Assembly (NCBI RefSeq): GCF_000006445.2
Contig: NC_006045.2
Span: 124,001 to 188,000 of the forward strand
Reading direction: 5' to 3'
DNA from: Debaryomyces hansenii CBS767
Taxonomy: Eukaryota > Ascomycota > Pichiomycetes > Serinales > Debaryomycetaceae
DNA length: 64,000 bases
Under the pieces are notes generated by a model. The model saw nothing but the letters and a program-made list of their open reading frames with translations. It did no database searches and was not told the origin of the DNA. Shown in pieces: positions 25,683-45,317 of this stretch. The translations under genes and the position numbers were made by a program. Numbering within the stretch: the first letter of the stretch is position 1; each line of letters starts with the position of its first letter.

Positions 25683-25689
25683 AATTTCT

Positions 25690-26110: not shown

Positions 26111-26123
26111 AGTAGTACTAACG

Positions 26124-28097
26124 ATGACATCAATGTACTTTTCAGGGAAGAATAGTAATGAGATCTTCTATGATGACCCTGATAACCAATGCATCCAGAT
26201 ATATCCATCCTTATTTGCTGAACTTGTATCTGATGGCGAACAAAACTCAAGGGTCTTTTTAGACACTCCACTCTTGAAAATTTGGGGTATAGATCAGCCT
26301 AAGATATTGCCTGCTCCAGAGCATATAATTAACAAGTTTTCAGCATCGGTTTCGGTTGGAAGTACGCCCGACTTGGTAGCTCTTTATTATATCACCAATA
26401 TGATGGTAACGGCTGAATATCGAGAGATTAGTAGTAATGAATTCAAGAATAACTTTCTTGCACCGCTAGATACCGTTATCAGAGAATCGGATATTCGTGA
26501 TAGAGTTTTGTCATACATGTATGCTTATCCAGTAGCAGAATCAAATAATGAGGAATGGATTCAAAAATATTTCAGTTGGTATATACTGAAAGCAATTAAT
26601 AGTCTTTACTTGTTCACTTGCGGTCGGCACCATGTATTTGGAGGGCCTCTGACTATAAAGCCATCATTTACTAATGAGAAGCATTTACGTTTTAAGCCTG
26701 ACATAGTTCACTACCTGACAAATGAGCTGGCTTCACTGTATGAATTCCCTCATATTTATTTTGGGTTGGGTGATTATAAAACAGAAAGTTATTGTTTACC
26801 GCAAGGCTTTGAAGAATTGAAAGCAGCTACAAAAGATTACAAGCAAAAACTATCGAATATTAGGCCATTGAGGGCGATGAAAGCCCCACTTGTTTTTGAA
26901 GATAAGATTGAAAATAAAAGCAGCAGAGTAGAGTGGTCTCCGAGAGTGATATTTGCCTTAGTATTACGGAAATACCTTTACCAGGCTTTCCTCTGCGGTA
27001 CCGATAGAGTGTTTGTTTCTGATCATCAAGCATTTTCTGGGTTTTTCAAGTACAAAATTGTAAGAGACGATGAAGTTGGCGATAAGATGGTCATAGACTA
27101 CTACGTTATTAATGATCCTGAGACAATTGCAGATGGAATTACATTAAGGTCTGCAATAGCTGGGTTCTTTTATAATAACGAGGCGGATGCACTAAAAACC
27201 ATGGAATCACTAAAAGAAGTATATAAATTAAGATGCATAGAGCAAGGATCAACGCAGAAAGAAAAGGGTGATCCACTACGTAACGTTGCACCTAGACCGG
27301 CGGAAAAGTCTAAGTCTAGGCCCACTAGTGGCAAAACAAGTGAAAAGTCCCATGGGAATCAGCTTAAGGGAAAACTAAAGCCGATTGAGGAAAACGATGA
27401 CTATGATGACTATGATGAAATCCACGGAAACACATACTGTCGAATAATATACGATCCTGTCAAGGCTTTTCCTAGTATAGGGCTGGACCTTCCGTCGCCT
27501 GTATTTGTTAAGTTATATAATTATCCAGAGATGGCACGGGAACATTTCCCAAGACGACAGAGCTACTACGACATGTTTATAACGGAATTTGAGATCAACG
27601 AAATGCTTGCACAGTCGCAGTTTGCTTCAAATTATGCAAGGCTTATCATGTCTGGATATTGGAAAGGACTACCAAGTCATCCGATGCATATGTTTGAATA
27701 CATAGGTAAAGAGAAGCCTATTGATGAATGGGACGAGAAAGTATATTACAGTATTAAATCAAGACTTGGAGAGATACATCTGATGGGAATATCACATAAC
27801 GATATCAGGTCCGACAACATACATGTATCTGTAACGGGAAACACCACATTGATAGACTTTGGATTAGCGATTTATCCATGCAGCGAGGAGAATAAGAGGT
27901 GCGATATTGAGGCTCTCGACCGGTTATTTTCAGATTATTTCAGTGACAGTCACAGTCAAAATAATTCCGATAACGATACTTGTGCTGAATGGAATGATGA
28001 TGTGAACTCCACGCGCGAAGCAGTTTTTGATGAACTGATTGCAGGGTCTGATGATACCCCAGAGACTACCAAGTTGGATTTCAATCAAAAGGGATGA
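26124..28097 (+). CDS. Large protein with PD-(D/E)xK nuclease-like region and C-terminal protein kinase domain
   Basis: 657 codons, intact. Residues 185-245 contain FKPDIVHYL (P192-D193) and, 24 residues on, FGLGDYKTE (D217-Y-K219), the spacing of a PD-(D/E)xK nuclease core. Residues 280-350 (LRKYLYQAFLCG...VFVSDHQAFSGF) resemble the helix that follows in fungal effector-like proteins. A Lys/Ser/Asp-rich linker covers 385-430. The kinase domain runs about 440-605: K463 (PVFVKLYN), HND at 558-560, N565, DFG at 578-580, all key residues present, with HND in place of HRD. The tail is acidic. This layout recalls the restriction-nuclease-like plus kinase proteins of the Crinkler/RHS-type class; that link is inference. 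It has at least eight CTG codons. Confidence 0.75.
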   Translation: MTSMYFSGKNSNEIFYDDPDNQCIQIYPSLFAELVSDGEQNSRVFLDTPLLKIWGIDQPKILPAPEHIINKFSASVSVGSTPDLVALYYITNMMVTAEYREISSNEFKNNFLAPLDTVIRESDIRDRVLSYMYAYPVAESNNEEWIQKYFSWYILKAINSLYLFTCGRHHVFGGPLTIKPSFTNEKHLRFKPDIVHYLTNELASLYEFPHIYFGLGDYKTESYCLPQGFEELKAATKDYKQKLSNIRPLRAMKAPLVFEDKIENKSSRVEWSPRVIFALVLRKYLYQAFLCGTDRVFVSDHQAFSGFFKYKIVRDDEVGDKMVIDYYVINDPETIADGITLRSAIAGFFYNNEADALKTMESLKEVYKLRCIEQGSTQKEKGDPLRNVAPRPAEKSKSRPTSGKTSEKSHGNQLKGKLKPIEENDDYDDYDEIHGNTYCRIIYDPVKAFPSIGLDLPSPVFVKLYNYPEMAREHFPRRQSYYDMFITEFEINEMLAQSQFASNYARLIMSGYWKGLPSHPMHMFEYIGKEKPIDEWDEKVYYSIKSRLGEIHLMGISHNDIRSDNIHVSVTGNTTLIDFGLAIYPCSEENKRCDIEALDRLFSDYFSDSHSQNNSDNDTCAEWNDDVNSTREAVFDELIAGSDDTPETTKLDFNQKG

Positions 28098-28641: not shown

Positions 28642-30180
28642 TTAAACGGTAGTTCCATCAATTGGCCAGACAGCTTCTTCGCCATAATTCCAGTGAACAG
28701 CTTTGGTTTGGGTGTATTCCTTCAAACCCTCAATACCTAATTCACGGCCGAATCCGGATTGCTTCATACCTCCAAATGGGACGGCATTGCTTAATGCCAT
28801 ATAATGATTGCACCAAACAGTACCTCCACGGAGAGCATGTACCATGCGCATGCATTGGGAAGCATTTTGAGAGAATACACCAGCGGCAAGACCATATTCT
28901 GTATTGTTCGCCTTTTCAACAGCTTCTTCCTCAGTACTAAAACTTTGAACAGTAAGAACAGGTCCGAATATTTCTTCATCGACGATTTTCATGCCCGGTT
29001 TACAATCTGTGAAAATTGTCGGAGAAACATAATAACCATTTTTAAATTGAGCTGATAAATGAGCCAATCTTTGTTCCCCACCAGTAAAAAGAGTAGCACC
29101 TTCTTCTATACCCGATTTAATATAGGATTGAATTTTTTCTTGTTGTTGTTTAGATACTTGGGGTCCTTGGAAAGTTTTGATGTCAAATGGATCACCAATA
29201 ACGTGTGATTCAAAATTCGTTTTAAGTTTTGCAAGGAATACATCTTTAATAGTGTCTTGAACGAATAATCGAGAACCAGCACAGCAATCTTGACCATGGT
29301 TGAAAAGAATACCTTGACTGACCCAGTTTACAGCTTGATCAATATCAGCATTGTCGAAGACAACTACAGGTGATTTACCTCCAAGCTCAAGAGTAACTTT
29401 TTTGAGATTACTCTTAGCAGCCGCTTCCATAATGGTACGTCCAGTGACGGTAGAGCCCGTGAAGGCAATCTTGTCAATATCCATATGAGATGAGATAGCT
29501 TTTCCAGCTACAGCACCCAATCCATTAACAATATTAATAACACCAGGGGGAAAACCTGCTTTGGCTGCTAATTCAGCTAAAACGAGAGCACTTAAAGGAG
29601 TCTGTTCAGCCGGTTTCATAATAACAGTGTTACCAGCGGCCAAGGCAGGGCCCACTTTCCAAGCAAACATCTGGATTGGGTAATTCCACGGAATAATTTG
29701 ACCACATACACCAATTGGTTCAGGTCTAGTAAAGGCTAACTTTACTCCTTCTTCTTGCTCGATAGTGCGGCCTTCAATCTTATCAGCAAGACCAGCATAG
29801 TAACGAAGGCACGCAATACTATCTTTAATATCGACATCACGAGCCATCCATACCGGTTTTCCATTATCAAGACTTTCGAGTTCTGCAAGAGTGTCGATAT
29901 TGGCATCTATCAAATCTGCCCATTTGTGAAGGGCTTCACTACGTTGTGAAGGTGTACTTTTCTTACCCCATGTAGTTTCAAAAGCTTTTCTAGCAGCTTT
30001 AACAGCATCATCAATATCTTCAGCAGTAGCAGCACTAATAGTGGCCAATGGTTCTCCAGTGGCAGGATTTGGAGTAGTCAATTCATTTCCATTTTTGGCT
30101 TGTCTAAATTCGTTATTGATAAATAAACCTGTTTTGAAAGAAATACTGTTACCAGTGGGAGTTTTAAGTGTAACTAACAT
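28642..30180 (-). CDS. Aldehyde dehydrogenase, NAD(P)-dependent, cytosolic type
   Basis: 512 codons, full length for the ALDH superfamily. Motifs: PWNYPIQMFAWKVGPALAAG, FTGSTVTGR (nucleotide binding), LELGGKSP with general base E265, and HGQDCCAGSR with nucleophile C299. No mitochondrial presequence and no peroxisomal signal (it ends DGTTV). It oxidises an aldehyde to its acid; substrate unknown. It is divergent from the FMN oxidase, with two CGG-N7-CCG repeats in the shared promoter, and belongs to the catabolic cluster. Its last codons were copied with the kinase duplication. Confidence 0.93.
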   Translation of the reverse strand: MLVTLKTPTGNSISFKTGLFINNEFRQAKNGNELTTPNPATGEPLATISAATAEDIDDAVKAARKAFETTWGKKSTPSQRSEALHKWADLIDANIDTLAELESLDNGKPVWMARDVDIKDSIACLRYYAGLADKIEGRTIEQEEGVKLAFTRPEPIGVCGQIIPWNYPIQMFAWKVGPALAAGNTVIMKPAEQTPLSALVLAELAAKAGFPPGVINIVNGLGAVAGKAISSHMDIDKIAFTGSTVTGRTIMEAAAKSNLKKVTLELGGKSPVVVFDNADIDQAVNWVSQGILFNHGQDCCAGSRLFVQDTIKDVFLAKLKTNFESHVIGDPFDIKTFQGPQVSKQQQEKIQSYIKSGIEEGATLFTGGEQRLAHLSAQFKNGYYVSPTIFTDCKPGMKIVDEEIFGPVLTVQSFSTEEEAVEKANNTEYGLAAGVFSQNASQCMRMVHALRGGTVWCNHYMALSNAVPFGGMKQSGFGRELGIEGLKEYTQTKAVHWNYGEEAVWPIDGTTV

Positions 30181-30369: not shown

Positions 30370-30382
30370 CGGAAACACCCCG
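30370..30382. promoter_or_regulatory. CGG-N7-CCG repeat (candidate Zn2Cys6 regulator site)
   Basis: CGGAAACACCCCG, followed by AAAA and preceded by T, in the ALD/FMN divergent promoter. Confidence 0.7.
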
Positions 30383-30410
30383 AAAATTTTCAGATCATGA
30401 AACCCCATGT

Positions 30411-30423
30411 CGGAAGGTTTCCG
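30411..30423. promoter_or_regulatory. CGG-N7-CCG repeat, fully palindromic
   Basis: TCGGAAGGTTTCCGA is a perfect palindrome about a central G, followed by AAA. Starts 41 bp after the start of the first site. Confidence 0.75.
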
Positions 30424-30547
30424 AAAACATTTAGAAACAACCCCCCAACGAGAGATATCCTTAGGATCCGGAGATCTACCAGGAGGGGATTCTGTAGATG
30501 GCTCCCATATATGCTTTCCGCTTATAAAAGGGTACTAGAACTCGTTA

Positions 30548-30592
30548 CAATTCAATTCGATTCGATTCAATTCAATTCAATTCAACTCAATC
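30548..30592. repeat. Pentanucleotide repeat (ATTCA/ATTCG)n
   Basis: About eight or nine slightly variable ATTCA or ATTCG units, ending about 32 bp before the FMN-oxidase ATG, so probably in its 5' untranslated region. Confidence 0.85.
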
Positions 30593-30624
30593 AAAAGGCC
30601 CATCTCTACCGTTTATTTTGAAAT

Positions 30625-31761
30625 ATGAATCGTGCTGTTACTTATGACGATAAAGTCCATTGCATTGCTGATCTTGAACTTGAAGCAAATAAAAAGCTTC
30701 CTCCAATGGTTCGTGATTTTTATGGTGGAGGTTCCATGGATCTTAATACCGTTCGAGAAAACAAATCTGCTTATGATCGTTACAGTTTAAGACCAAGAGT
30801 AATGGTAGATGTTACCGAGGTGGATACAAGTACTACTTGTTTGGGATCTAATGTTGCATTTCCATTAGGGTTTTCTCCATCTGCTAATCATGGACTAGCT
30901 CATCCTGATGCCGAACGTGGTACGTCCAGAGCAGCTGCTAAGAAGAAGATTAATATGGCACTTTCAAGTTGGACCAATACTTCTCCAAAAGTTGTCGCGG
31001 AACAAGGTAAGGATGCTGGTATCTCATATGCCCATCAATTGAGTGCTGTTAAAGACCAAGATGTAACTATGTCCATTATTCGTAATGCAGAAGCTTGTGG
31101 GTATAAGGCTATTTTCTTGAGTGTTGACTGTCCATTGTTAGGAAGAAGACTAAATGAAATGAAAAATACCTTTACTTTACCTTCGAATTGTAAATTCCCA
31201 TGTTATCCGTTTATCAAAGGGGGTGACATGGTGAGCAGTGATGATCGTACTCAATATGAAACTACGCTCACCTGGTCTTATATTAAAGAATTAAAGAAGA
31301 AGACCAATATGGAAATTTGGTTAAAAGGGATCCTCACTGGTGAAGATGCTGAAATGGCCGTTAATGCTGGAGCAGATGGTATTATTGTATCGAATCACGG
31401 TGGAAGACAGCTTGACGGTGCCTTGTCCACGTTGGATGCATTACCTGATGTTGTTGCGGCAGTTAATGGTAGAATCCCAGTTCACATTGATGGGGGCATT
31501 AGAAGAGGAAGTGATATTTTCAAAGCTCTTGCCTTAGGCGCTGACCATTGCTGGGTTGGCCGTGTTGCCGTTTGGGGGCTTGCTTATAAAGGAGAAGAAG
31601 GTGTTTCTATTGCATTAAATATTTTGCATGATGAATTCCGTTTAGTTATGGCATTAATGGGTTGCACTTCTGTCAAAGACATCAAGCCAGAACACCTCGC
31701 TAGGATGTCTTCCGATGGAAGATTCCACAAGGTTACACGTATAGCGGAAGCTAAGTTATAG
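30625..31761 (+). CDS. FMN-dependent 2-hydroxy-acid oxidase with C-terminal peroxisomal signal
   Basis: 378 codons. A TIM-barrel flavoenzyme of the glycolate oxidase / L-lactate oxidase family. Key stretches: FPLGFSPSANHGLAHPDAER, LSVDCPLLGRRLNE, the catalytic Lys in WLKGIL, the catalytic His and substrate Arg in SNHGGRQLDG, and the flavin-phosphate site IDGGIRRGSDIFKALALGA. There is no cytochrome b5 domain, so it is not a flavocytochrome b2 and probably passes electrons to oxygen, giving hydrogen peroxide. It ends AEAKL; AKL is a consensus PTS1, so it is likely imported into peroxisomes. Substrate unknown (glycolate, lactate, mandelate or another 2-hydroxy acid). Confidence 0.9.
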   Translation: MNRAVTYDDKVHCIADLELEANKKLPPMVRDFYGGGSMDLNTVRENKSAYDRYSLRPRVMVDVTEVDTSTTCLGSNVAFPLGFSPSANHGLAHPDAERGTSRAAAKKKINMALSSWTNTSPKVVAEQGKDAGISYAHQLSAVKDQDVTMSIIRNAEACGYKAIFLSVDCPLLGRRLNEMKNTFTLPSNCKFPCYPFIKGGDMVSSDDRTQYETTLTWSYIKELKKKTNMEIWLKGILTGEDAEMAVNAGADGIIVSNHGGRQLDGALSTLDALPDVVAAVNGRIPVHIDGGIRRGSDIFKALALGADHCWVGRVAVWGLAYKGEEGVSIALNILHDEFRLVMALMGCTSVKDIKPEHLARMSSDGRFHKVTRIAEAKL

Positions 31762-32138
31762 ATACGTAAAATACCTAGAACAAAGCTGAATATAAGTAAA
31801 TTACTAATTAGGTTACGTTAATAAACTCAGGATATTTTTTTGATTTTCTCTTGTCGTAGAGTGCTGGGAGTTAATTTTCTTGGGTTACTCTAATTATTAT
31901 ATTACAAATTTCTACAAAATGACTGAACAGAAAAAGCAGTTATCTCATTATGTTGGTATTTGCTGCTGGTAATTATCTGATAGCTATTAATTTGACGAAT
32001 GCTCTTGATCTATCAATGCTAATTCCAGTTATATTAAGGTTCAACGTCTTATTGTCGCAATCTACGTACTATAATATTAGCCCATGTTAGATTCATTTTT
32101 TTATATCTATATAGACCTGACTTGATTGAATAAAAAAA
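31762..32138. other. Convergent intergenic region, FMN oxidase / DapA-like gene
   Basis: About 377 bp, AT rich, with T-runs suited to 3' end formation. No gene and no CGG-N7-CCG site seen. Confidence 0.5.
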
Positions 32139-33026
32139 CTATTTGTACTTTCTCTTTTCAAGAATCTTTGAGAGTTTTTCAATATCTTCATCCTCTAACG
32201 GGAGAGTTGGGAGTCTGAGGGGTCCAGCGGATTGTCCAATAATATCAAGACCTGTCTTAATACCAGCTGGATAATTAACGCTCTCCAAGAAATCACTGAC
32301 TTCCCAAAGGAATTTCCACTGCTCTCTAGCCTCATCAATGTTCTTCTCCCTTGAGAAAGTGTTCCAAAGCTCAACACATTCCTTTGGAACAATAGATGCA
32401 ATACCCCAGACAATAGCTTGAGCCCCATGGGACATGGAAAAGAAAGTTAAAGTATCCCATCCATTGAAAACAGTAATCTTATCAGAAGGGTTGGTAAGAA
32501 GATCTGCATGTTCCTTGGCATTACCAGAAGTATCCTTCATATAATCAAAGCCTTTAATCTCACCTAATTGTCTAACTTGATCAGCAGTAAGGTGAACCCC
32601 AGTCGCACCTGGCAAATTATAGTACATGACAGGAATTGAGATGGATCCACAGACATCTTTATAAAATTTATAAAGAGCCTTGAAAGAAAGAGGATCGTAG
32701 AATGGAGGGACAATCATAACTGCAGTAGCGCCCATTTTTTCAGAAAACTGAGCCATTTCAATAGCGTGTTGAGTGCTGTTACTACCAAGACCTGCCACAA
32801 CTGGGATTCTTCCTTTCGCAGCATCAATATAAGCCTTAATGACACTCTTGTGTTCTTCCGTTGTAAGAGCTGGAAATTCACCAGTAGTGCCCGTTGTTAC
32901 GATACCATGAATTCCAGCATCAGCAAGTCTGTCAACTTGCTTTGCAATATTTGGAATATCAATTCCTTTAGCATCCGTAGTGAGAGGAGTTGGAACAGCA
33001 GCAAATATACCTTGAAGTTTAGTCAT
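32139..33026 (-). CDS. DapA/N-acetylneuraminate-lyase family aldolase or deaminase
   Basis: 295 codons from the first ATG; a frame 26 codons longer would need a TTG start. TIM barrel with GTTGE (46-50), Y136 in YYNLPGATG and Schiff-base K164 in DYMKDTSGN. In dihydrodipicolinate synthase the segment after the Tyr reads YNVPSRTG, with an arginine that binds the carboxylate of the semialdehyde; here it reads YNLPGATG, so lysine synthesis is unlikely (and fungi do not use that route). Candidates are 4-hydroxy-2-oxoglutarate aldolase, a keto-deoxy-sugar-acid aldolase, or hydroxyproline-pathway deaminase. Divergent from the amino-acid permease with three shared CGG-N7-CCG sites. Confidence 0.88.
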   Translation of the reverse strand: MTKLQGIFAAVPTPLTTDAKGIDIPNIAKQVDRLADAGIHGIVTTGTTGEFPALTTEEHKSVIKAYIDAAKGRIPVVAGLGSNSTQHAIEMAQFSEKMGATAVMIVPPFYDPLSFKALYKFYKDVCGSISIPVMYYNLPGATGVHLTADQVRQLGEIKGFDYMKDTSGNAKEHADLLTNPSDKITVFNGWDTLTFFSMSHGAQAIVWGIASIVPKECVELWNTFSREKNIDEAREQWKFLWEVSDFLESVNYPAGIKTGLDIIGQSAGPLRLPTLPLEDEDIEKLSKILEKRKYK

Positions 33027-33048
33027 TATTATTATTATTATTATTATA
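33025..33048. repeat. Trinucleotide repeat (ATT)n abutting the DapA-like start
   Basis: About eight ATT units running from the start codon into the 5' untranslated region of the DapA-like gene. Read as codons from the upstream TTG they give an isoleucine run, which argues against that longer start. Confidence 0.85.
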
Positions 33049-33153
33049 TGTTTTAATGAATTGGAACTAGAAAAGGAATAGAATATGGCCCCTTTTAAGT
33101 TCAATGGAATTCATGTATTATTTACGAAAGAATTTCATGAGTAGACCTATAAA

Positions 33154-33166
33154 CGGAAAGTGTCCG
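33154..33166. promoter_or_regulatory. CGG-N7-CCG repeat
   Basis: CGGAAAGTGTCCG followed by ATAA. It shares the CGGAA half with the ALD/FMN sites. Confidence 0.7.
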
Positions 33167-33186
33167 ATAACTTTAAGGCTAAATTT

Positions 33187-33199
33187 CGGCACCTGTCCG
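33187..33199. promoter_or_regulatory. CGG-N7-CCG repeat
   Basis: TCGGCACCTGTCCG, 33 bp after the previous site. Confidence 0.65.
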
Positions 33200-33282
33200 T
33201 TACCGTACGGGGATTACCGCAAAATTAAGGTACACATCATAATGCTTCTTACTAAATGTATATGTTCCTCATTTTGGGTTTC

Positions 33283-33295
33283 CGGACGATCTCCG
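33283..33295. promoter_or_regulatory. CGG-N7-CCG repeat
   Basis: CGGACGATCTCCG followed by CAAAA, nearest to the permease gene. Confidence 0.65.
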
Positions 33296-33511
33296 CAAAA
33301 CTGATATGTTTGAGTGGGGTGAAAATTGTAATGGGTAGAGTCAATAAAAATAATCAACACAAGCTCGTTAAGGATGTCTTTGTTAATAATTGTTATCATC
33401 TAAAAACATTCCCAAGTTACAAGATAAGAGTTAGCGGGGAGATAAATGAAATGAGATAAAACGAAGATAGAACGCTAAAATACTACGGTATTCTATAACT
33501 ATTCATGCAGT

Positions 33512-34987
33512 ATGTCAAGAATTGAATTAGAAGAAAAAATGTTTAAAGGTAATATCACGATTAAGAAGGAGGTGACTATTGATGGTAACCTGGAAAATGG
33601 GTCCATGTTTGATGTGGAAGACGATAATGTGTTCGTAAATAATGGCGAGGGCCCTGATTTCAGAGGTGTTTCTTGCTTGGGAGGTGCAGTTTTGATCGCA
33701 AAAATTCAATTTGGTTTAGGTGTGCTTGGCTTGCCTCAAACTTTTCAAGTATTGGGATTGGTCCCCGGTTTAATAAGTCTCATTGGTTTATGTATCCTAA
33801 GTACATGGGCGGGGTTTGTTATTGGCAAGTTCCGCCTTTCTCATCCACAAGTTCACAATGTTGGAGATGCTGCTTATCTTTTGTTTGGTAAGTACATCGG
33901 TGACCTATTCGGATTTGCGTTTTGGCTCCAATATACCCTTTTATATGGTGCTGCGGTACTTACTCTTTCCATTGCTTTCAATACATTTAGTGATCACGCA
34001 GTTTGCACTACTGCTTGGGTTGGTATTAGCGCTGCCATGGCTCTCATTGCAGGCCTTGTTATACGTACTATGAAAGTTTTATCATGGTGTGGTTATGTTG
34101 CGGTAATATCAGTTTTCCTTGGCGTTTGGGTTGTTGCAATCGCTTGTTTAACTCAAGATACTCCAGCTGCAGCTCCAAAGTCGTCTGAACCTATCGATAC
34201 AATGGTCCAAGCAGTTGCTACAGGCTCAACTTACTCAGCTATTTCCGGTGCTGTTGCTACTCAAGTTTTAAGTCTTTGTGGTACGCCTTCATTTTTTATA
34301 ATTCACGCTGAAATGAAGGACCAAACAAAATATGTTAAATCACTTCTCATGGGCCAAGGGTTTGTTGCTTTTAATTATATTGTAATTAGTTGTATTGTTT
34401 ACGGAAAGGTGGGACAATACGTTGCATCGCCATCTCTTGGATCTGCTGGTATGTTAATTCAAAAAGTAGCATACGGAGTTTCATTCCCTGCACTTTTCTT
34501 TGCATGTTTTTTCCAAGCTCACCTTTCAGCGAAATACGCACTTGTTCGTATTTTAAAAGGTTCTGTGCATTTACAAAGTAATTCTAAAACCCATTGGGCG
34601 GTTTGGATTAGTATGATGTCATTGGTTATTGCTATAGGATTTGTAGTAGCTGGTGCTATTCCATTTTTTGATGATTTATTAGGATTAATTGGTGCACTTC
34701 TTGGGACAAGTTTCACCCTCATAATCCCAGCATTCATGGCTTTATATCAATTAGGTATAGTGTCCGATGAGCCTACATATAGTGGCTTAACATGGTTAAA
34801 GAAATCTCAAAAGGAATGGAGAAGTAGTAAAGCTAACACCTTGACTGTTCTAGTGTCGTTTTTCGCAATAATTTGCGGCATTTATATTTGCGTCTCAGGA
34901 GTGTACGGGTCTGTTGCATCTATTGTTCAAAGTTATGCCGACGGCCTTGTTTCCAGTGCATTCTCCTGTGCAGATAATAGTCGCTGA
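33512..34987 (+). CDS. Amino-acid permease of the AAAP family (Mtr-like)
   Basis: 491 codons. After a polar ~50-residue N-terminus there are about 11 membrane segments, beginning LGGAVLIAKIQFGLGVLGLP, the signature first helix of amino acid/auxin permeases. Overall it resembles Neurospora Mtr, a neutral and aromatic amino-acid permease. It should sit in the plasma membrane and import an amino acid by proton symport; substrate unresolved. It uses CTT and CTC for leucine more often than the neighbouring core genes appear to. Member of the catabolic cluster by its shared promoter with the DapA-like gene. Confidence 0.85.
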   Translation: MSRIELEEKMFKGNITIKKEVTIDGNLENGSMFDVEDDNVFVNNGEGPDFRGVSCLGGAVLIAKIQFGLGVLGLPQTFQVLGLVPGLISLIGLCILSTWAGFVIGKFRLSHPQVHNVGDAAYLLFGKYIGDLFGFAFWLQYTLLYGAAVLTLSIAFNTFSDHAVCTTAWVGISAAMALIAGLVIRTMKVLSWCGYVAVISVFLGVWVVAIACLTQDTPAAAPKSSEPIDTMVQAVATGSTYSAISGAVATQVLSLCGTPSFFIIHAEMKDQTKYVKSLLMGQGFVAFNYIVISCIVYGKVGQYVASPSLGSAGMLIQKVAYGVSFPALFFACFFQAHLSAKYALVRILKGSVHLQSNSKTHWAVWISMMSLVIAIGFVVAGAIPFFDDLLGLIGALLGTSFTLIIPAFMALYQLGIVSDEPTYSGLTWLKKSQKEWRSSKANTLTVLVSFFAIICGIYICVSGVYGSVASIVQSYADGLVSSAFSCADNSR

Positions 34988-35697
34988 GGCAAAAAGTTGC
35001 AAATTATTCTATATATATGTACTGAATTCTATTTTACAATTTTAATCCGGTGTAGATGCCTAATGGTTCCTATCCATTAATATTTACAATGATAATTGAT
35101 TGTTTCACTCAGTATGAGTTTTATTTAAGGCAAATATTGATTATGACCAGCTTTTACGATTACACCCGTTAATTTTGATCCAGAAAAAAAAAAATCTTCC
35201 AAGACTAAAGCTTTCATATTAAACTATATTTTGGGTAGAAGGAAGGGGTTGATTAAAGATCTTGGGATCTTTGAATGTATCGGGAAAAGATGAACAAACT
35301 TTCGGGAATAGTCCGAAAACGATAAGAGTATTTAGGTTGTTAAGCCGGCATATTTAGAATTGCTTAGATTGTTCTCGTTTCCACATACCGTAAATGATTA
35401 CATGTTCTTACGCGGCAATATGGCGGGTTATAAATCTTGATTCTGACTCCTTCTTTATTTCTAGTTACAATGTAAAATTGACTATTCCTTTCATATTAGC
35501 TACTAAAATTGAATATGCACAAGGGTTCAAAATATTATGCACAAATAATCATATAATGAATTGCACTAAATGATGTTATCGCTATTCATATTTGCCGTTC
35601 ATCGACTGGCCCATTATATTATGGGGATAGTATGGGAGCATATTTTCATTTAAAAGCAAAATAGAACCTCTGAAAAGTTGTTGGTCGATGTTTTTTA
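34988..35697 (+). promoter_or_regulatory. Upstream region of the PTR2 transporter gene
   Basis: 710 bp. Contains the permease 3' flank, then one CGG-N7-CCG site at 35303-35315, about 385 bp before the PTR2 start, and several single CGG triplets. No gene seen. Confidence 0.6.
35303..35315. promoter_or_regulatory. CGG-N7-CCG repeat
   Basis: TCGGGAATAGTCCGAAAA: same flanks (leading T, trailing AAAA) as the ALD/FMN sites. Confidence 0.7.
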
Positions 35698-37665
35698 ATG
35701 GGAAGTATGATCAGTATTAGCCAAGATAGAGAGAAAGACTCAGACAAGGCCAAGTACAAAGTCAATGGAAAGACTCAGGGGGAGATTGAGGAGGCTCGTC
35801 TCAATGCTGTTAACGAAGATGATACGAACGACTCGAAGACATCAAGCGACGAATTTGAAGATGAGGATATCTACGATTTTGATGACAGTAACAATTATTC
35901 AACGAACTTTGTCGATGAACACAATCCTATGGGGTTGAGAAGACCTACTAAACAAGAATCGTCTTCATTAAGAAGAGTGTTGGGTAGAGCTGACTGGATT
36001 TGCTATTTGCTTTGTGTAGCCGAATTTGCTGAAAGAGCTTCTTACTACTCATGCCAGACTCTCTTGAGTAACTTTGTTACTAACAAATTGCCCGAGGGTA
36101 GCAGTACCGGTAAGCTTATGCCTGGTAGTGTTAATCCTGGTGCTTTAGGCTTGGGTGTGCCAACTGCAACCGCCATTACCTATACGTTGACATTCGTGGC
36201 TTATGTTGTACCATTATATGCTGGTTATGTCGCTGATGCTCAGATTGGTAAGTTTAAAGCGATATGGATTGGCGTTATTTGTGGAATAGTTGCTCATGTT
36301 TTACTTGTTGTAGCTGCCGCTCCTGCTGTTATTGCTGGAGGGCATGCTATTGTTCCAACTGCATTGGGTGTCATCATGTTAGCATTTGGAACTGGTTTCA
36401 TCAAACCTAATTTGCTACCACTCTTGATGGATCAATACCCTGAGCTGACAGATGTGATTAAAGTTTTGCCTTCTGGAGAATCGGTGATAGTTGACCGTCA
36501 AAAGTCGTTGGAAAGGATGACGTTAGTATTCTATTGGTCCATCAATGTCGGCGCTCTTTTCCCAATTCCAAGTGTTTACATCGAAAGAAGAATTGGATTT
36601 TGGTTCGCCTTTTTCATTCCGATCATTATATTTCTCATTATTCCTTTTGTCTTTTGGTTCGTACATCCCAAACTTAAAAAGGAGGAGCTTCAAGGCTCTG
36701 TTCTTGTAAACACTAACAAAATCTTGAGAGTTCTGTTTAGAGGAAACTGGCTTAAGAGGTTGAAGCAAAGGACCTTTTGGGATTATGCGACTCCAACTAA
36801 CATGAGGGCGAGAGGCGAAGGATACTTTAATATAAAGAAAAAGAAGCCGATCACTTGGACTGACCAATGGGTGTTAGATGTCAAGCAAATTGTTAATATT
36901 TGTAAAGTTTTTTTGTACTTCGTAGTATTCAATCTTTGTGATGCTAGTAGTAGTGGAGCAACACCAGCATTAACGGCACAGTCAGGATCTATGACGAGTG
37001 ATGGAACACCTAACGATATGTACAGTAATTTCAGTGCAATGTCGATCGTTGCACTTATACCAATATTGGATTACGGTATTTATCCTTTATTGCGTAAATG
37101 GAAAATCAACTTTTGGCCTTCATGGAGAATCACTCTTGGTTTTCTCTTGGCTGCTTTGACCCAGGCAGCAGCTGCAATTATTCAAAAAGAAATTTATAAC
37201 ACAATTGAATGTGGAGAGCATGCCACAGAATGTGTAGAAAACGGAATCGTAGCACCGATTAATGCCTGGGTCCTGGTGACACCATATATTTTATCTGCTG
37301 CAGGTGAATGTTTTGCTAACACTTCCGCTTATGAATTGGGTTATACTAGAGCTCCATCTCACATGAAAGGCTTCGTCCAGGCATTGTTCTTATTTTCAAC
37401 TGGTATAGCTGCAGCGATAGCTGATGCTATCAGCCCTGCTTTGAAAGATCCAAACTTGGTTTGGTATTTTGCAGCATTAGCAATTGTCGGTGGTGTATTT
37501 ACTGTTCTTTTCTTTATTCATTTTAGAAACTTGCATAAGACTATGGAACACGAAAGCAAGATAAGAGCCATATTGATGCGTAAACAGGAGGGTGAAATAA
37601 CTCTCGAACTCAACAACATGGAACTGGTCACGTCGACCACATGTGTTGCTGTTAAGCAATTGTGA
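35698..37665 (+). CDS. PTR2: Proton-coupled di/tripeptide transporter, PTR2/POT family
   Basis: 655 codons. An acidic cytosolic N-terminus (~95 residues) precedes about 12 membrane helices. POT signatures: AEFAERASYYSCQTLL (the E-x-x-E-R-like proton/substrate motif), FVAYVVPLYAGYVADAQIGK, LAFGTGFIKPNLLPLLMDQ, the FYWSINVGALF block and the long loop between halves. Fungal Ptr2 imports di- and tripeptides across the plasma membrane. CUG-clade yeasts often have several PTR2 copies, so this may be a paralogue dedicated to the cluster. Its promoter carries one CGG-N7-CCG repeat. Confidence 0.93.
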   Translation: MGSMISISQDREKDSDKAKYKVNGKTQGEIEEARLNAVNEDDTNDSKTSSDEFEDEDIYDFDDSNNYSTNFVDEHNPMGLRRPTKQESSSLRRVLGRADWICYLLCVAEFAERASYYSCQTLLSNFVTNKLPEGSSTGKLMPGSVNPGALGLGVPTATAITYTLTFVAYVVPLYAGYVADAQIGKFKAIWIGVICGIVAHVLLVVAAAPAVIAGGHAIVPTALGVIMLAFGTGFIKPNLLPLLMDQYPELTDVIKVLPSGESVIVDRQKSLERMTLVFYWSINVGALFPIPSVYIERRIGFWFAFFIPIIIFLIIPFVFWFVHPKLKKEELQGSVLVNTNKILRVLFRGNWLKRLKQRTFWDYATPTNMRARGEGYFNIKKKKPITWTDQWVLDVKQIVNICKVFLYFVVFNLCDASSSGATPALTAQSGSMTSDGTPNDMYSNFSAMSIVALIPILDYGIYPLLRKWKINFWPSWRITLGFLLAALTQAAAAIIQKEIYNTIECGEHATECVENGIVAPINAWVLVTPYILSAAGECFANTSAYELGYTRAPSHMKGFVQALFLFSTGIAAAIADAISPALKDPNLVWYFAALAIVGGVFTVLFFIHFRNLHKTMEHESKIRAILMRKQEGEITLELNNMELVTSTTCVAVKQL

Positions 37666-37958
37666 TCGAAAGAAGATATAAGTTATTACCTTTATATGAT
37701 ACCTTCATACTTAAAGGACATTAGCTGCGAAAAGTAGTAAGATAGTATCAAATCGTTATATTATCTAACCGAACATTTAGGTATATATAACATGAATCTA
37801 GTTCTAAATGAATAAATAACGTGTATACTACTGTTCGTGCGTTCTGTGGGAATTTCCCCGTTTGTCTTGCTCCAGAAGCAAAACAAAAGCCGCCTTATTA
37901 TACGCAAGTGTATTGTATTCACCGGCGAAGGAACCCTATTCTAGTTTACCAAAAATTT

Positions 37959-40427
37959 TTAGATTGAAAGAAATTGTTCACTTGCCTCTGGTAAAGGATA
38001 AAGGAACCAACGCTCTAATTCGGCACCCAAATTAGCTTCAGACCAATCAGGTAATATGTCCAAATCACGAATTGGTTCGGCTTCAGCCGCAACATTAGAA
38101 ATCGCTGCCAATCTTTCCATACTTGGGTCTTCAAACGTGGCCAATGGTTGCGTAGAATTATCGGAACCTGAACTTACTTCATTTAACCGATAATCTGGAT
38201 CCTGAAGAGCCTGAGTTTTATCATTTGATACACTATGTGGTTGATCTGAGAAAACTAAATTATTACGGGAACGGTCTCCCTTCACAACAGTATACGAATC
38301 CTTATCGATTTGAAAATCAAGCATACCGTTACTTGTAGACGCATCAATGTCATGTTTAGAGTAATGCTCATCACCATAGCCATTAGAACGGCTTTCCCAG
38401 AATTGTATATTAGTTTCTTGAAGAACTGTTGAGTATTCCTGAACAGGAATTAACATATCTTCAATTTGTGTCGGTCTTGATACAGAAAGATTATCTAATT
38501 TTGCAATTTGACTCCAGATACATCTTTCATGACTATCATGTTGTGGTAAAGAAGGAGCTATACTAGTAATATGTTTAAGAACATTTGATGAGATCATTTC
38601 AAAGGCATTCCTTATTCGTTCATTGGCTCCTACCTCTAAAGCAGACAACGTTTCAAGCATTGCAGTGCAAGACTGAATTTGTAGAAAAATCTCAACAAAC
38701 GATATGCACAATTGATGTGAATTTCGTCTCTCAGCAAGTTCTTTCAAAGAGCTAACGAAAGTTAACCCACACATGAAGAGATTTTGTACAGTAAGCCACG
38801 AAAAAACTGCTGATAATTCTCTATGCATCGTTTTCACTAGTTTCATGACCTCACCGGCAGAGTGGAATGCAACATGTAGTGCTTCATTAGATAGCTTTGG
38901 GCGATTAGGAGACGGGCGAAAAAGCAAAACAACGGCAATATGAAATTCTAACTCTGTCCACTCCTTCGTTATTAATGGAGTAGGAAGACAGAAACTACTA
39001 CGCCAAAGTCTAAGCTGGTCATACATTTGCCAACTCCAATTAGTCATATCTTTATGAGGTAACTTTTCCTGATTCGCAGGTGCGTATAAGCGTTGGTGTA
39101 TTTCAGATTGTAATCGATATATACGAATTTGCTGAATTTGAGCGACTTTTAGGTAGCATCGAGGACCAGGAAGTATCCCACGAACAGTAACTAGCATATC
39201 TTCAACCAATGCTGGACATTTAGCAGATATCCAAGAATCGGGAATTCCAATAGGTCTTCCCATCACCGTCGAGAGAATCCGATCAATACAGTAACAGGTC
39301 CAGAATATACGCCGACGAAGGTCCAAACTTAGCGGATCAAATTCTTGTGAGGGATTTGGTTCAGCATAGAGTCCCATTTCAGTTGCAAACCTCATAGCAG
39401 AACCTGAAAGTTGCCACAAATTTCCTGCCTTGGGAACCAATAGAGTATACTGCAATAATAGTAAAATGTTTTGAAGTTTTTCAATTCCATAACCCAATAG
39501 TACTCGGACACGAAGTTCTGTCGCTGATTTCCAGAAATCATGGGCAATTCGTCCAATCTCTGAAATGGACAGATGGGGCCGCCGAATTGAAGCAAGCGAA
39601 ATAGCTATGACCATATGTACCTGAAAATGGTCTACTAAAGAAGCTTCCTTGGGTTTCTTCCGGCATCTCTCTAGTTGAAAATGAAACATACATTCATGTA
39701 GTACTGGATGGGCGCTATTCATCCACGTAAAATATCGTTTTGCCAATCGAGTGAGTATATTATAATCATAAGCAGTAATATCTGTAATCCTATTTCTTGA
39801 GTTGTTCCGACGACCCTGCTTCAAGAAATCTCGCCCAAGTTTAGCGTTAGCCATGTTCTCCTTTTCAATATTTATTTCCCTTGCGCTTTGTCTAAAAGAT
39901 GAGCTTGAATATTGTCGGATTTCACTGTCGAGGTTATCACTTACCCGTGTGGCATCTCCCCCATTAAAAGTTGTTGCGAACAATGTATCCATCGTATCTC
40001 GGACAGAGTCTTCATTATCTTCATTCAAAGAATGTGGTGAAAGATCAGTTTCAGAACTTGTTAGACTTGAATGCCGCTGAATTTGAGACGGCGATGGAGA
40101 TCTACTGGATATTGGCAATATCGATTGATCCTTCGAACGATTTTGATTACTTGACAATCTGGTTCGTTTATGTACGCGTTCTCTATTATCTTTCTGTTCT
40201 TCAAAAATACTTTGCTCTCCTTCAAAAGCCCGAATATGCTCTTCTAAAGACCAAACATAACCTCTAGTAACAGCTTTACCCAAAACCTTATCTTTGTTCA
40301 TACATTCGGTCCCAGCCTTTACACAATTGGAGCATGATGGGAGCTGCGAATCACACTTAGTCTTCCTGGTACGACATCTCTCACAAGCCGGAAGTCGTCG
40401 CTGATTATTTTGGTTCTCTTCAACCAT
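37959..40427 (-). CDS. Zn2Cys6 transcription factor with fungal-specific TF domain (likely cluster regulator)
   Basis: 822 codons from ATG 40425-40427; a start 5 codons upstream would be TTG. The binuclear zinc cluster uses C15, C18, C25, C32, C35 and C42 (CERCRTRKTKCDSQLPSC...). A Ser/Arg-rich linker follows. The fungal-specific TF middle domain (about 225-560) includes LLVPKAGNLWQLSGSAMRFA and the LRRRIFWTCYCIDRILSTVM motif. The C-terminus is acidic and may activate. It lies tail-to-tail with PTR2. Two decayed copies lie nearby (43030-43330 and 45607-46690). Zn2Cys6 dimers bind paired CGG triplets, so it is the natural candidate for the CGG-N7-CCG sites; no perfect site was seen in its own promoter. 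Confidence 0.9.
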   Translation of the reverse strand: MVEENQNNQRRLPACERCRTRKTKCDSQLPSCSNCVKAGTECMNKDKVLGKAVTRGYVWSLEEHIRAFEGEQSIFEEQKDNRERVHKRTRLSSNQNRSKDQSILPISSRSPSPSQIQRHSSLTSSETDLSPHSLNEDNEDSVRDTMDTLFATTFNGGDATRVSDNLDSEIRQYSSSSFRQSAREINIEKENMANAKLGRDFLKQGRRNNSRNRITDITAYDYNILTRLAKRYFTWMNSAHPVLHECMFHFQLERCRKKPKEASLVDHFQVHMVIAISLASIRRPHLSISEIGRIAHDFWKSATELRVRVLLGYGIEKLQNILLLLQYTLLVPKAGNLWQLSGSAMRFATEMGLYAEPNPSQEFDPLSLDLRRRIFWTCYCIDRILSTVMGRPIGIPDSWISAKCPALVEDMLVTVRGILPGPRCYLKVAQIQQIRIYRLQSEIHQRLYAPANQEKLPHKDMTNWSWQMYDQLRLWRSSFCLPTPLITKEWTELEFHIAVVLLFRPSPNRPKLSNEALHVAFHSAGEVMKLVKTMHRELSAVFSWLTVQNLFMCGLTFVSSLKELAERRNSHQLCISFVEIFLQIQSCTAMLETLSALEVGANERIRNAFEMISSNVLKHITSIAPSLPQHDSHERCIWSQIAKLDNLSVSRPTQIEDMLIPVQEYSTVLQETNIQFWESRSNGYGDEHYSKHDIDASTSNGMLDFQIDKDSYTVVKGDRSRNNLVFSDQPHSVSNDKTQALQDPDYRLNEVSSGSDNSTQPLATFEDPSMERLAAISNVAAEAEPIRDLDILPDWSEANLGAELERWFLYPLPEASEQFLSI

Positions 40428-41192
40428 GATGTTGAATGTCAAGAATACTTCAAGAAAAGCTTTATGATTAGTGGATAATGTAGATTGTAGAATGGTTGAA
40501 GAACTCCAACTTTCGCGATCTTGGGGTTGCGGGACTCATCTCCCATATTTTCGGGTCTATATACGACAAAAACGATAAACCCCAACATGTAAGAGCTACA
40601 ATTTCTCCTATAACATAGAATACGATATAGACATAGATGCGCGAGACGCTTTCCGAAGTAGATCGAAGTTAAACTCTTAGGCTGGCGAAAAACGTAAGAT
40701 CCTCCTTTACACTCCGATACCTCCGACCACCGAATCATTTGAATTCTTAATTTGCAATAAAGGTGCAATTTCATTCCAGCACACAACCAAGATCCATTTT
40801 CATGGTTTCCACCTACTCAATTGATATAATTTGTAAGCGAATATTTATCAATTCACATCAATCATGTACTGAGTTTGTTGACTAATACTCATCGTTCGAT
40901 TCACGATTAGCTATTACGGTGGTCTTTACGACCCATAGTATTGTATCTACATAATCGAATGGACATATACATATCTTATTGAGGAGATTATATGTTTCTA
41001 GGGCGGGATCAACTTCATAGTTATAACGAATGAGCCGACGAGAAAGATATCAAAATTCTCTAAAATCAAAATAAATTCAATACATATAACGAATACAACA
41101 TAGTTTAAAAGATATTATGACATCCCTCCGCCTCAAAGACACAAATGTCCAACTCTATAAATCTTTTCTATAAATATGTAAACAATAATACT
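40428..41192. other. Upstream region of the Zn2Cys6 gene
   Basis: 765 bp. The proximal block around 40508-40535 (CGCGATCTTGGGGTTGCGGGA) recurs upstream of both dead copies of the gene. Three CCG triplets, CCGATACCTCCGACCACCG, lie at 40714-40732. No gene seen; an open frame at 40439-40786 is an artefact. Confidence 0.55.
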
Positions 41193-42701
41193 TTATACCT
41201 TACTAAAATAAAACATACGCCAGATATAACTCATAATTGTGGGCTTTAAAATATGCTCAAACTTACTCTCTAATTCTTTTTTAGTTTCATTCCTGTAAAA
41301 TTCATAAATTTTCTTTTCTTGTGACACACTTGCTTCGCTTCTTAAGCTCTCAAAATATAATGAATTTGTTTCCGTTATCTTTTGAGGCTCTTCCGTATCA
41401 AGAATTCTAATAACTAATAAAAGAAGGAAACAAGCTAAAACACACGACCCAGAAAATATTTGGGTACGTAAGTAAGGCCTACTGCTTGATTCATCTCTCA
41501 TACGATTATTTCTGCTACTAAGCAAAAAAATAATGCCAGGCTATTAACAGTCGACCATGCTGCAGGTATTTTATAGGGATCGTCAATTATATCCTCTGCT
41601 AGCGGTTACTCCATGGCATTTCCAATTCCAATAATAGCTCCTAATACAAGTACAAATGTAATCAAGGATCCATAATTGTCTGCATTAATCCAAAATGCCA
41701 ATAGCAAAATGGCATTGATTAAATTGATAATTGCCGCAGTATTACAATGCCCAAATTTATCTGCTAAATACCCTAGAAATGGTCTACCGATTCACTAACC
41801 TGTATTAAACAAAGCTGTGAGAACTGCTCCTTGTTGTGATGAAAGACCCACCAGTCTCGCATAAGGTGACACTTTAAAGAGCATAAGAATATACCCGAGT
41901 TGACAAATTGAATACCATAATTAAAATAGATCCAATCGATTTAAAGACAACTTTATCAAAAATCAAGACTAAAGAGTTTCTAAATTGCTCTTTTTTACTC
42001 GATTCATAACGCATTCTGCTTAAAGGCTTATATGATTCTATTACAATGAATACAATCAATCCAGCAAAGAAGGTAACGAAACAAATCATTCGAAGTGCCC
42101 ATTTTTGATCATCCAAATCCCCAAGCATTTTGTTGACACTAAAAAATAAGTCCTCCGAATCTACCACCACTTACTGTGACTCCCATTGCAGTAGCTCGTC
42201 TTTTTAAAAACCATGTGGTAATGGTAAGGCTTGCGGGAATGAAAGTTAGAGGAAAGGAGTCCAACCAAAATTCCCTGAAATAAATATAATTGCCAAAGCT
42301 TCCTCAAAAATGATGCCAATAAAAACCCGACAGTCTGAAGAATTATACTAATCCCTATCACAGTTCTTATACCTAATAAATTCGCTGCGATAGAGGCCCA
42401 GGGGGCTAAAAATTAGCCTAAGAAAACGACGATGCTTCTAACTAATGTAAAATATTTATCAGTAGCACCTTGAAAGGTATTGTGTGATATATAAAACTCC
42501 GTAACTAGCGCTTGTTCCCCAAGTTGCAAAATGGGAAAACATAGCTCCTATTGCTATAAACCACGCTTTTCCTCAGTCCGGAGGTTCAAAGTTCTCATAT
42601 TCCTGGCCCGATATTTCAACTTCATTTCCCAATATTTCTTCGTCAGTTTCTGCTTGAAAATTTTGGTTTTTTGTTTTTGCAGCCTGTCCTTCAACAATCA
42701 T
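41193..42701 (-). pseudogene. Dead MCH-type monocarboxylate transporter (major facilitator)
   Basis: Fragments in several frames rebuild the order of an MCH/MCT protein: start MIVEGQAAKTKNQNFQAE (ATG 42699-42701), GKAWFIAIGAMFSHFATW, FLLASFLRKLWQLYLFQG, KMLGDLDDQKWALRMICFV, GRPFLGYLADKFGHCNT, and a C-terminal cytosolic tail (41193-41525) still open. Lesions seen: in-frame stops at 42573-42575 and 42413-42415, frameshifts near 42165 and 41870, tandem stops about 41794-41799. MCH proteins are plasma-membrane carriers related to monocarboxylate transporters. Its upstream region keeps a CGG-N7-CCG site, so it was probably once in the regulon. Confidence 0.85.
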
Positions 42702-42863
42702 AACAGCATAATATATAGGTCCTTATCGAATTTTGATATTCCGAATTTCAATAAAATTCATTCCATTTATAAGAATTTACATATTTGTAATCATCATCAT
42801 TCATACCCCGTTAATACCCCTTCCGTATGAAGCGCTTGTTAGTTTGTCATATTTTACAATTTT

Positions 42864-42876
42864 CGGAAGTTCACCG
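42864..42876. promoter_or_regulatory. CGG-N7-CCG repeat upstream of the dead MCH gene
   Basis: TTTTCGGAAGTTCACCGAA; on the minus strand TTCGGTGAACTTCCGAAAA. It lies about 165 bp upstream of the pseudogene start. Confidence 0.65.
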
Positions 42877-44120: not shown

Positions 44121-45317
44121 ATGAAAAGCCTTTTATTGATAGGTTTGAGTTCAGAAAATCATCCAAATGAATTGAACAAAGACCCCAACAATGTTCAGTA
44201 TGCAAGTAATGCCTCGTGGGCTGCAATATCCCATTATCCAGCTTTGCAGCATTTGAAGAACAAATTTGTACTTCATGGATTATTGAACTCAAATGAAGAG
44301 AAAGGCAAAAAGATTGCAAAGATTCTAGAACACTCAGACCCTAATTTAAAAATTTATCGTTCAGAAGAAGAAGTGGTTCAGAATCACAAGGATATTGATA
44401 TTGCAGTTGTAAGTGTTAATGTACGCTATCATTTTAAAATTATCATGAACTTAATAGATTCACCTATGTTAATATATTCTGAATGGCCTTTAGCAAAGTC
44501 GTTAAATGAGTCGGAAACAATTTTGTCCTCGAGGAAGAATAATGCTAAATCAACTATTGTGGGCCTTCAATCTAGAAAAGCTCCTCAGATTTTAATGGCT
44601 AAACGTCTTATTGAGTCTGGTGCGTTAGGAAGAGTTCTCAGAACAAGGGCTATAGGGTATTGTGGTGCTATTTTTAATGGTCAAATTCTTGAGGGTAGTG
44701 AAGATTTTTATTTAAATCCTGAGAATGGTCATACTCTTTTCAGTATACCTTTCGCTCACTTGTTTGATGCTATAATGTACACCCTTGGGTCATATCCTAA
44801 GAAACTTTTCGCTGAAATTTTAAATAGAAATCCTGAGTATGTTGAGGTTAATAAAGAGGGGATTGCCACAGGGAGAGTAAAAAAGAATGAAAGTCCAAAT
44901 GACGTACTTGTTGCAGGTACATTTGAAAATGATGTGACTGTATCTGTGAATGCCATTCCCGGTGTACCGCTTTGTAAAGAATCGCCAGGACTAAAGTGGG
45001 AGATTTTTGGGACCGAAGGGTACATCCTAATTGAATCACAATCGTGTTTTGTGGAATTGAATAAACTAACACTAAAATATTTTGATCAGAATGGGAATAT
45101 GACATTTTCCGATATGAAAGACTACAATCCTTTTGCACAGAATGTGGCACAAATGTACGAAGCGATTGAACCAAACCATGAAGCACAAAGGTTCGCATTT
45201 TCCGGAGTACCAACTTTTAAAGATGCAGTAATTTTACACAGAATCCTTGATAAGCTCATGTTATCTTCAACTGAAGGAGTTGTGAATTTCACAGAAGATG
45301 ATTTTTACAAATTCTAA
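44121..45317 (+). CDS. GAL80-like oxidoreductase (Gfo/Idh/MocA family)
   Basis: 398 codons from the first ATG; a frame 10 codons longer would start with TTG. It has the N-terminal dinucleotide-binding half (KSLLLIGLS...WAAISHYPALQ...FVLHGLLNSNEEKGK), the IYSEWPLAK segment where sugar dehydrogenases have EKP, and a C-terminal substrate half (IPFAHLFDAIMYTLG). The EWP variant and overall likeness place it near fungal Gal80-type proteins, which may be regulators or enzymes. No GAL genes are nearby. It sits between two dead Zn2Cys6 copies, and its promoter has CCG-N3-CGG (43999-44007) but no CGG-N7-CCG, so membership of the cluster is uncertain. Confidence 0.8.
   Translation: MKSLLLIGLSSENHPNELNKDPNNVQYASNASWAAISHYPALQHLKNKFVLHGLLNSNEEKGKKIAKILEHSDPNLKIYRSEEEVVQNHKDIDIAVVSVNVRYHFKIIMNLIDSPMLIYSEWPLAKSLNESETILSSRKNNAKSTIVGLQSRKAPQILMAKRLIESGALGRVLRTRAIGYCGAIFNGQILEGSEDFYLNPENGHTLFSIPFAHLFDAIMYTLGSYPKKLFAEILNRNPEYVEVNKEGIATGRVKKNESPNDVLVAGTFENDVTVSVNAIPGVPLCKESPGLKWEIFGTEGYILIESQSCFVELNKLTLKYFDQNGNMTFSDMKDYNPFAQNVAQMYEAIEPNHEAQRFAFSGVPTFKDAVILHRILDKLMLSSTEGVVNFTEDDFYKF

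Follow-up and report, generated by a model that had tools for sequence, protein, structure and literature searches.

CGG-N7-CCG sites crowd the promoters of a candidate hydroxyproline catabolic gene cluster in the yeast Debaryomyces hansenii

Results

The locus described here lies on contig C3 of Debaryomyces hansenii CBS767, the genome of which was analysed as 12,181,948 bases in 8 contigs. The window, i.e., the whole stretch of 64,000 bases under analysis (C3:124001-188000; positions without a contig name are those of the window), contains a gene cluster whose promoters carry seven copies of the inverted repeat CGG-N7-CCG. Proteins of the window were translated with genetic code 12 (CUG = serine). 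The first two genes, which are divergent, encode an aldehyde dehydrogenase (ALDH) of 512 residues (28642-30180, minus strand; Aldedh, 590 bits) and a 378-residue protein of the flavin mononucleotide (FMN)-dependent alpha-hydroxyacid-oxidase family (30625-31761, plus strand; FMN_dh, 402 bits), hereafter the FMN oxidase. A second divergent pair encodes a DapA-like protein with a match to the DHDPS family (32139-33026, minus strand) and an AAAP amino-acid permease of 491 residues (33512-34987, plus strand; Aa_trans, 86.7 bits). These are followed by a PTR2/POT oligopeptide transporter of 655 residues (35698-37665, plus strand; PTR2, 162.5 bits) and by a Zn2Cys6 regulator of 822 residues with a Ppr1-type DNA-binding domain (37959-40427, minus strand). 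Next come the pieces, in several frames, of a decayed minus-strand transporter (41193-42412), called a dead MCH transporter in the original prediction; one of the five pieces matches MFS_1, at 28.2 bits and thus under the cut-off of 33.4. A decayed second copy of the regulator gene lies at 45615-46675 (minus strand).

Eight matches to CGG-N7-CCG were found in the window. One, at 18370, falls within an open reading frame (ORF; 18040-18729), and the other seven belong to the cluster, where their predicted coordinates proved exact and all lie outside the listed ORFs. Sites 1 (30370-30382) and 2 (30411-30423) are in the divergent promoter of the ALDH and FMN-oxidase genes, and sites 3 (33154-33166), 4 (33187-33199), and 5 (33283-33295) are in that of the DapA-like and AAAP genes. 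The centre of site 6 (35303-35315) stands 389 bp before the PTR2 ATG, and site 7 (42864-42876) lies upstream of the decayed transporter, which in its present state still keeps this element. The other long intergenic regions of the window had been read as free of the motif, and the scan outside ORFs indeed gave no match beyond 30370-42864. In these scans, the excluded ORFs are the 32 listed ones, nearly all of at least 120 residues, and the decayed genes at 41-43 and 45-46 kb were treated as intergenic DNA.

Five of the seven sites have a leading T (read by eye), and the sequence CCGAAAA flanks four of them on one strand, namely sites 1, 2, and 6 on the plus strand and site 7 on the minus strand; both features had been noted before. 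The description of site 2 as a perfect 15-bp palindrome had to be corrected. In TCGGAAGGTTTCCGA, the arms of TCGGAA-N3-TTCCGA are perfect for 6 bp, and a mismatch follows at the seventh position. Over the 14 half-sites, T precedes CGG at position -3 in 12 and at position -1 in 10, and A follows it directly in 10, which gives the consensus TNTCGGA-N5-TCCGANA. The centre-to-centre distances of 41 bp (sites 1 and 2), 33 bp (sites 3 and 4), and 96 bp (sites 4 and 5) correspond to 3.9, 3.1, and 9.1 turns of the helix and are close to whole turns, which with three intervals proves little.

The spacing of seven stands out. When all spacings from 0 to 20 were scanned outside ORFs between 28 and 44 kb, N7 gave seven sites and every other spacing none or one. 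The single CGG-N6-CCG is at 33208, and neither N11 sites of the Gal4 type nor N10 sites of the Put3 type are found in this intergenic DNA. Everted and direct CGG repeats in this DNA never exceeded one site for a given spacing, with the exception of direct CGG-N19-CGG, which occurs twice.

Local density was evaluated in two ways. Dinucleotide shuffles of the whole window gave a mean of 2.52 matches and a largest count of 6, none of 100 reaching the observed 8; the three promoters upstream of the ALDH/FMN-oxidase, DapA/AAAP, and PTR2 genes (1,639 bases together) hold six sites, versus a mean of 0.093 and a largest count of 3 in shuffles, none of 20,000 reaching 6. The genome-wide rate predicts 0.34 sites per 12.5 kb, so that the cluster is approximately 20-fold over-dense; the probability of seven or more is 7.6e-8, or about 7e-5 once multiplied by the number of 12.5-kb windows. 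The claim that the sites mark one cluster is therefore well supported, despite the ordinary genome-wide count, and the N7 element is real and local.

In the genome as a whole, CGG-N7-CCG occurs 330 times, versus 444 in a read-backwards control, and CGG-N6-CCG occurs 363 times, versus 565. Thirty places match CGGTTCRANYCCG, which resembles the T arm of a tRNA, as judged by look rather than with a tRNA finder. The genome scan for TCGGN7CCGA that had been suggested as a check gave a divided answer: the word is not enriched (43 places versus 35 in the control), whereas its crowding in the cluster, which holds four of the 43, was upheld. CGGN7CCGAAAA is found at 13 places (control, 8), four of them again in the cluster. 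A motif that is ordinary genome-wide but crowded in one cluster argues for local, pathway-specific sites. A genome-wide regulon was considered and rejected, given that TCGGN7CCGA stays near the control level and the neighbouring genes have no common theme. Among the 39 places outside the cluster, 23 were examined, of which 13 are inside ORFs of at least 150 residues and 10 are outside. The genes near nine of these ten encode sugar transporters, an aldo/keto reductase, an SDR protein, a cytochrome chaperone, an NAD-glutamate dehydrogenase, a polysaccharide deacetylase, a homeodomain protein, a C2H2/Fungal_trans protein, and an MMSDH-type ALDH.

Close pairs were searched for with a pattern that requires a leading T in the first site and 4 to 34 bases between the sites; it can miss pairs, and it missed 33154/33187. 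It returned the cluster, a pair at C3:608894/608922, and a tRNA-like sequence present in six copies. The C3 pair (C3:608894-608936; L105) lies about 920 bp before the gene for an ALDH that scores over the MMSDH cut-off (TIGR01722, 634.5 bits). It is possibly a second target promoter, which we regard as a lead only, because the control for this search also gave one match. A site at C2:1263175-1263192 (L100), TCGGAAACTTCCCGAAAA, is 166 bp before the gene for a C2H2/Fungal_trans protein of 795 residues and has 15 bases identical to the site at C3:608922. Near the end of contig C5, a broken relative of the FMN oxidase (C5:1983292-1984251) is accompanied by a distant relative of the regulator (C5:1991177) and, some 10 kb beyond the broken gene, by a CGGN7CCGAAAA site (C5:1994320); this stretch might be a decayed second cluster.

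The domain content of the regulator places it among the Zn2Cys6 (Gal4-type) proteins (Zn_clus, 42.7 bits with a cut-off of 21; Fungal_trans, 82.8 bits with a cut-off of 23). The best PDB match of its DNA-binding domain is Ppr1 (1pyi), and 18 residues separate the last Cys from the Leu-Glu with which the coiled coil begins, exactly as in Ppr1. Our pattern caught 25 of 44 rows, a number that includes both the window protein and its duplicate P0121; the linker has 18 residues in 24 of these 25 and 19 in the remaining one. No close second copy is present in the genome apart from the decayed one, for which three stretches with inner stops (48, 53, and 50% identity) were matched at C3:169618-170675. 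D. tyrocola has two intact copies (P0124 and P0125), on contigs of equal length. Relatives at 39 to 47% identity occur in two basidiomycetes, Naganishia and Violaceomyces, as well as in Candidozyma auris (P0145, P0150, and P0162), and the patchy spread of these relatives suggests fungus-to-fungus transfer or contamination. In a scan of viral contigs with the regulator alignment, 151 stretches fit the patterns and none encodes a relative.

The assignment of the DapA-like protein as a true dihydrodipicolinate synthase was not supported. Its TIGR00674 score of 195.2 bits is under the cut-off of 206.15, and the arginine that has a role in the true enzyme, which follows YNVP-x in two solved synthases, is replaced by Ala (YNLPGATG). 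Its closest named non-fungal relatives are mostly actinobacterial, at approximately 55 to 58% identity among the 120 matches listed. With the actinobacterial alignment, 53 bacterial loci were fetched (52 from Actinobacteria and one from Thermaerobacter), and neighbouring genes were identified by tblastn (E ≤ 1e-10, more than half of the query covered). The DapA proteins of these loci are 38 to 58% identical to the window protein in 52 loci and 29% identical in Thermaerobacter.

A gene of the proline-racemase/hydroxyproline-epimerase family is found in 44 of the 53 loci (in 40 of them with at least 50% identity to its counterpart in locus L034), a gene of the D-amino-acid-oxidase (DAO) family in 34 (33 at 44% or more), and one or the other in 49. 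An ALDH gene occurs in 40 loci, in 25 at 46% or more and in 15 at 31 to 35% only. The gene order of L034 is amino-acid ABC transporter, DAO, DapA, racemase family, ALDH, and bacterial catabolism of trans-4-hydroxy-L-proline uses an enzyme set of this type, as described in passages of PMC6608401 and PMC4113996. In the L034 racemase-family protein, the two active positions are occupied by Ser and Cys (by eye); a Ser-Cys 4-hydroxyproline epimerase is reported in a passage of PMC4113996, and PMC4364671 enters the Ser-Cys type as of unknown function. No Pro_racemase protein (4-hydroxyproline 2-epimerase) passes the Pfam cut-off in the yeast genome, and the same search passes it in 1 of 14 control genomes. 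The one weak yeast match, at 25.1 bits with a cut-off of 27, is an ORF of 297 residues that is presumably PhzF-like.

The best PDB matches of the FMN oxidase are two tandem lactate-oxidase constructs, followed by glycolate oxidases. In an alignment of 20 sequences, Lys234, His258, Arg261, and Asp168 are invariant, and they align with glycolate-oxidase residues that have catalytic roles. Tyr24 and Tyr129 (spinach numbering), which contact the substrate in glycolate oxidase, correspond to Phe32 and Ser140. The Tyr129 position is Ser or Cys in all 20 fungal relatives, which means that this loss belongs to the fungal clade; because relatives from Aspergillus and other fungi are also without Tyr129, it was discarded as a feature specific to the cluster enzyme. 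The genome contains no close second copy of the oxidase; it has two relatives at 34 to 36% identity and, in addition, a broken relative in two pieces. Many of the fungal relatives are named Oxidase FUB9, and FUB9 acts on a cyclic imino acid.

The co-occurrence of the genes in other fungi was estimated through a proxy for contig sharing, namely equal size of the longest contig (taken per protein) together with the same source, matched by eye. At least two equal sizes, 1612 and 9228, join DapA and FMN-oxidase rows of different sources; they were taken as chance and left uncounted. By this proxy, contigs are shared by the regulator and DapA in 10 cases, among them Yamadazyma tenuis, by the regulator and the FMN oxidase in 8, by DapA and the FMN oxidase in 9, and by all three in 4 (D. 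tyrocola, Violaceomyces palustris, and two other contigs). The sharing cases include two Trichomonascus and the basidiomycete Violaceomyces. In a FastTree phylogeny of 34 DapA sequences, with L082 as the one outgroup besides the actinobacterial sequences, the 12 fungal sequences included (11 named ones and that of the window) form, with two basidiomycetes, a single clade (support, 1.0) nested among the actinobacterial ones. The exact sister of this clade is weakly supported (0.80).

Discussion

What was computed directly comprises the sites with their single spacing and local density, the families of the genes, and the finding that the bacterial relatives of DapA stand in operons of the hydroxyproline type. 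From this, we propose with moderate confidence that a single pathway-specific activator uses the sites as its operators, that it is most likely the protein encoded at 37959-40427, and that it serves a hydroxyproline catabolic cluster. The function of the cluster is probably hydroxyproline catabolism, with hydroxyproline as the likely substrate and inducer. A dimer of the regulator would bind TNTCGGA-N5-TCCGANA and switch on the cluster, and the AAAP permease and PTR2 would import free and peptide-bound hydroxyproline. The FMN oxidase may oxidise L-hydroxyproline directly to pyrroline-4-hydroxy-2-carboxylate, from which the DapA-like protein, acting as a deaminase, would yield alpha-ketoglutarate semialdehyde; the ALDH, as a putative alpha-ketoglutarate semialdehyde dehydrogenase, would then yield alpha-ketoglutarate. 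Direct oxidation of L-hydroxyproline would make the bacterial epimerase and D-hydroxyproline oxidase unnecessary. The Zn2Cys6 protein is a plausible reader of the N7 sites because of its Ppr1-type domain, the association of its gene, in other fungi, with those for DapA and the FMN oxidase, and the lack of a second close copy apart from the decayed one.

Several observations weigh against this proposal. Ppr1 and UaY sites are CGG-N6-CCG, and a linker of Ppr1 length would suggest N6 rather than N7 sites; either the geometry has really shifted or the sites have another reader. No N7 site is present in the regulator's own promoter (40428-41192), even when one mismatch is allowed. Counterparts of the FMN_dh, AAAP, and PTR2 genes of the cluster are absent from all 53 bacterial loci; it is the absence of FMN_dh that counts here, as the first step was then not copied from these loci. 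In NCBIfam, the racemase-family proteins of the loci, that of L034 included, score highest with trans-3-hydroxyproline dehydratase, under all cut-offs, so that 3-hydroxyproline is still a possible substrate. Among the 20 fungal relatives of the FMN oxidase, the Tyr24 position is occupied by Phe in 9 and by Tyr in 11, and Tyr24 is kept in P0170, whose contig is apparently shared, by the proxy, with a regulator relative. Finally, the ALDH is 39.6% identical to that of the L034 operon, and its top score is for betaine-aldehyde dehydrogenase, under cut-off.

The linker length and the empty regulator promoter would both be accommodated if another Zn2Cys6 protein of the genome read the sites, with the cluster's own protein binding elsewhere or acting through protein contacts. 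Candidates are numerous, since a genome search with the regulator gave 33 match rows (the query itself and split genes included). We nevertheless consider this unlikely: the regulator gene accompanies the DapA and FMN-oxidase genes in other fungi, and the sites are dense in this cluster only, unlike the pattern of a global regulator.

It is also improbable, in our judgement, that the cluster acts on another substrate, such as trans-3-hydroxyproline, a D-amino acid, a sugar acid, or another keto-deoxy acid, and has only its enzyme families in common with the hydroxyproline route. DapA, ALDH, and FMN_dh are broad families, and neither the DapA-like protein nor the FMN oxidase has an NCBIfam match over the cut-off, which leaves room for such a reading. 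The racemase-family or DAO genes that stand near the DapA relatives in nearly all of the loci are, however, part of the hydroxyproline enzyme set.

A route like that of mammals would make the DapA-like protein a 4-hydroxy-2-oxoglutarate aldolase of the HOGA1 type and the FMN oxidase a glycolate oxidase, with the earlier steps encoded elsewhere. HOGA1 belongs to the same superfamily, glycolate oxidase acts downstream in that route, and glycolate oxidases directly follow the lactate-oxidase constructs among the PDB matches. Against this, proteins encoded in bacterial operons of the deaminase type reach 58% identity to the DapA-like protein, an entry named HOGA1 is absent among the best 60 of its 147 PDB matches, and the positions of Tyr24 and Tyr129 are changed, though the former varies among relatives; we find this route quite unlikely. 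Chance or local base composition, for which the lack of genome-wide enrichment could be invoked, is hardly credible as the origin of the sites in view of the shuffled promoters, the probability under the genome rate, and the fact that spacing 7 alone stands out.

With Ppr1 of Saccharomyces cerevisiae, which serves pyrimidines, and UaY of Aspergillus, which serves purines, the proposed hydroxyproline regulon shares the Zn2Cys6 domain and CGG inverted repeats, many of them flanked by T...A, and with Ppr1 also the 18-residue linker; it differs in having seven N7 sites and one N6 site in the intergenic DNA of the cluster. Put3 is likewise a Zn2Cys6 activator of a proline-type pathway that uses CGG inverted repeats, with N10 spacing instead. 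For Candida albicans, a passage of PMC10621835 reports that the Put3 target Put2 is not induced by hydroxyproline compounds. In Streptomyces coelicolor, HypR is a GntR-type repressor, in contrast to the Zn2Cys6 protein of the yeast cluster, and its operon encodes an epimerase together with a D-hydroxyproline dehydrogenase of three subunits, where the yeast cluster has one FMN oxidase. This oxidase shares the FMN_dh family and its conserved residues with plant glycolate oxidase and fungal FMN oxidases, and the substitutions at Tyr24 and Tyr129 set it apart from the glycolate/lactate oxidases. In the open full-text literature, a scope outside which most subscription journals fall, neither CGGN7CCG nor a close variant was found, and no fungal hydroxyproline cluster was among the matches listed.

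A broader proposal is that the cluster represents a self-contained, horizontally spreading fungal hydroxyproline module, composed of a captured bacterial-type deaminase, a directly oxidising FMN enzyme, and a Zn2Cys6 regulator that reads N7 sites with a linker of Ppr1 length. This is put forward tentatively, and our confidence in it was lowered slightly because the replacement of Tyr24 varies among relatives. If correct, it would give fungi a hydroxyproline regulon complete with binding site, regulator, and enzymes that can be tested, as a counterpart of the bacterial HypR regulons with another way to pyrroline-4-hydroxy-2-carboxylate. Hydroxyproline is an amino acid of collagen, and the regulon would be relevant to a yeast found in cheese and dry-cured meat, foods that may contain products of collagen breakdown. 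Whether a linker of Ppr1 length can serve N7 sites is also a question of interest for protein-DNA recognition.

Two further features of the window were observed. A Gal80-like protein of the GFO/IDH/MocA type (PF22685, 166 bits) is encoded at 44121-45317, near the Zn2Cys6 gene. In the region 23555-28097, the ORFs at 23555-24226 and 24836-25285 resemble, by eye, a broken duplicate of the DUF3698/kinase-like ORF at 26124-28097.

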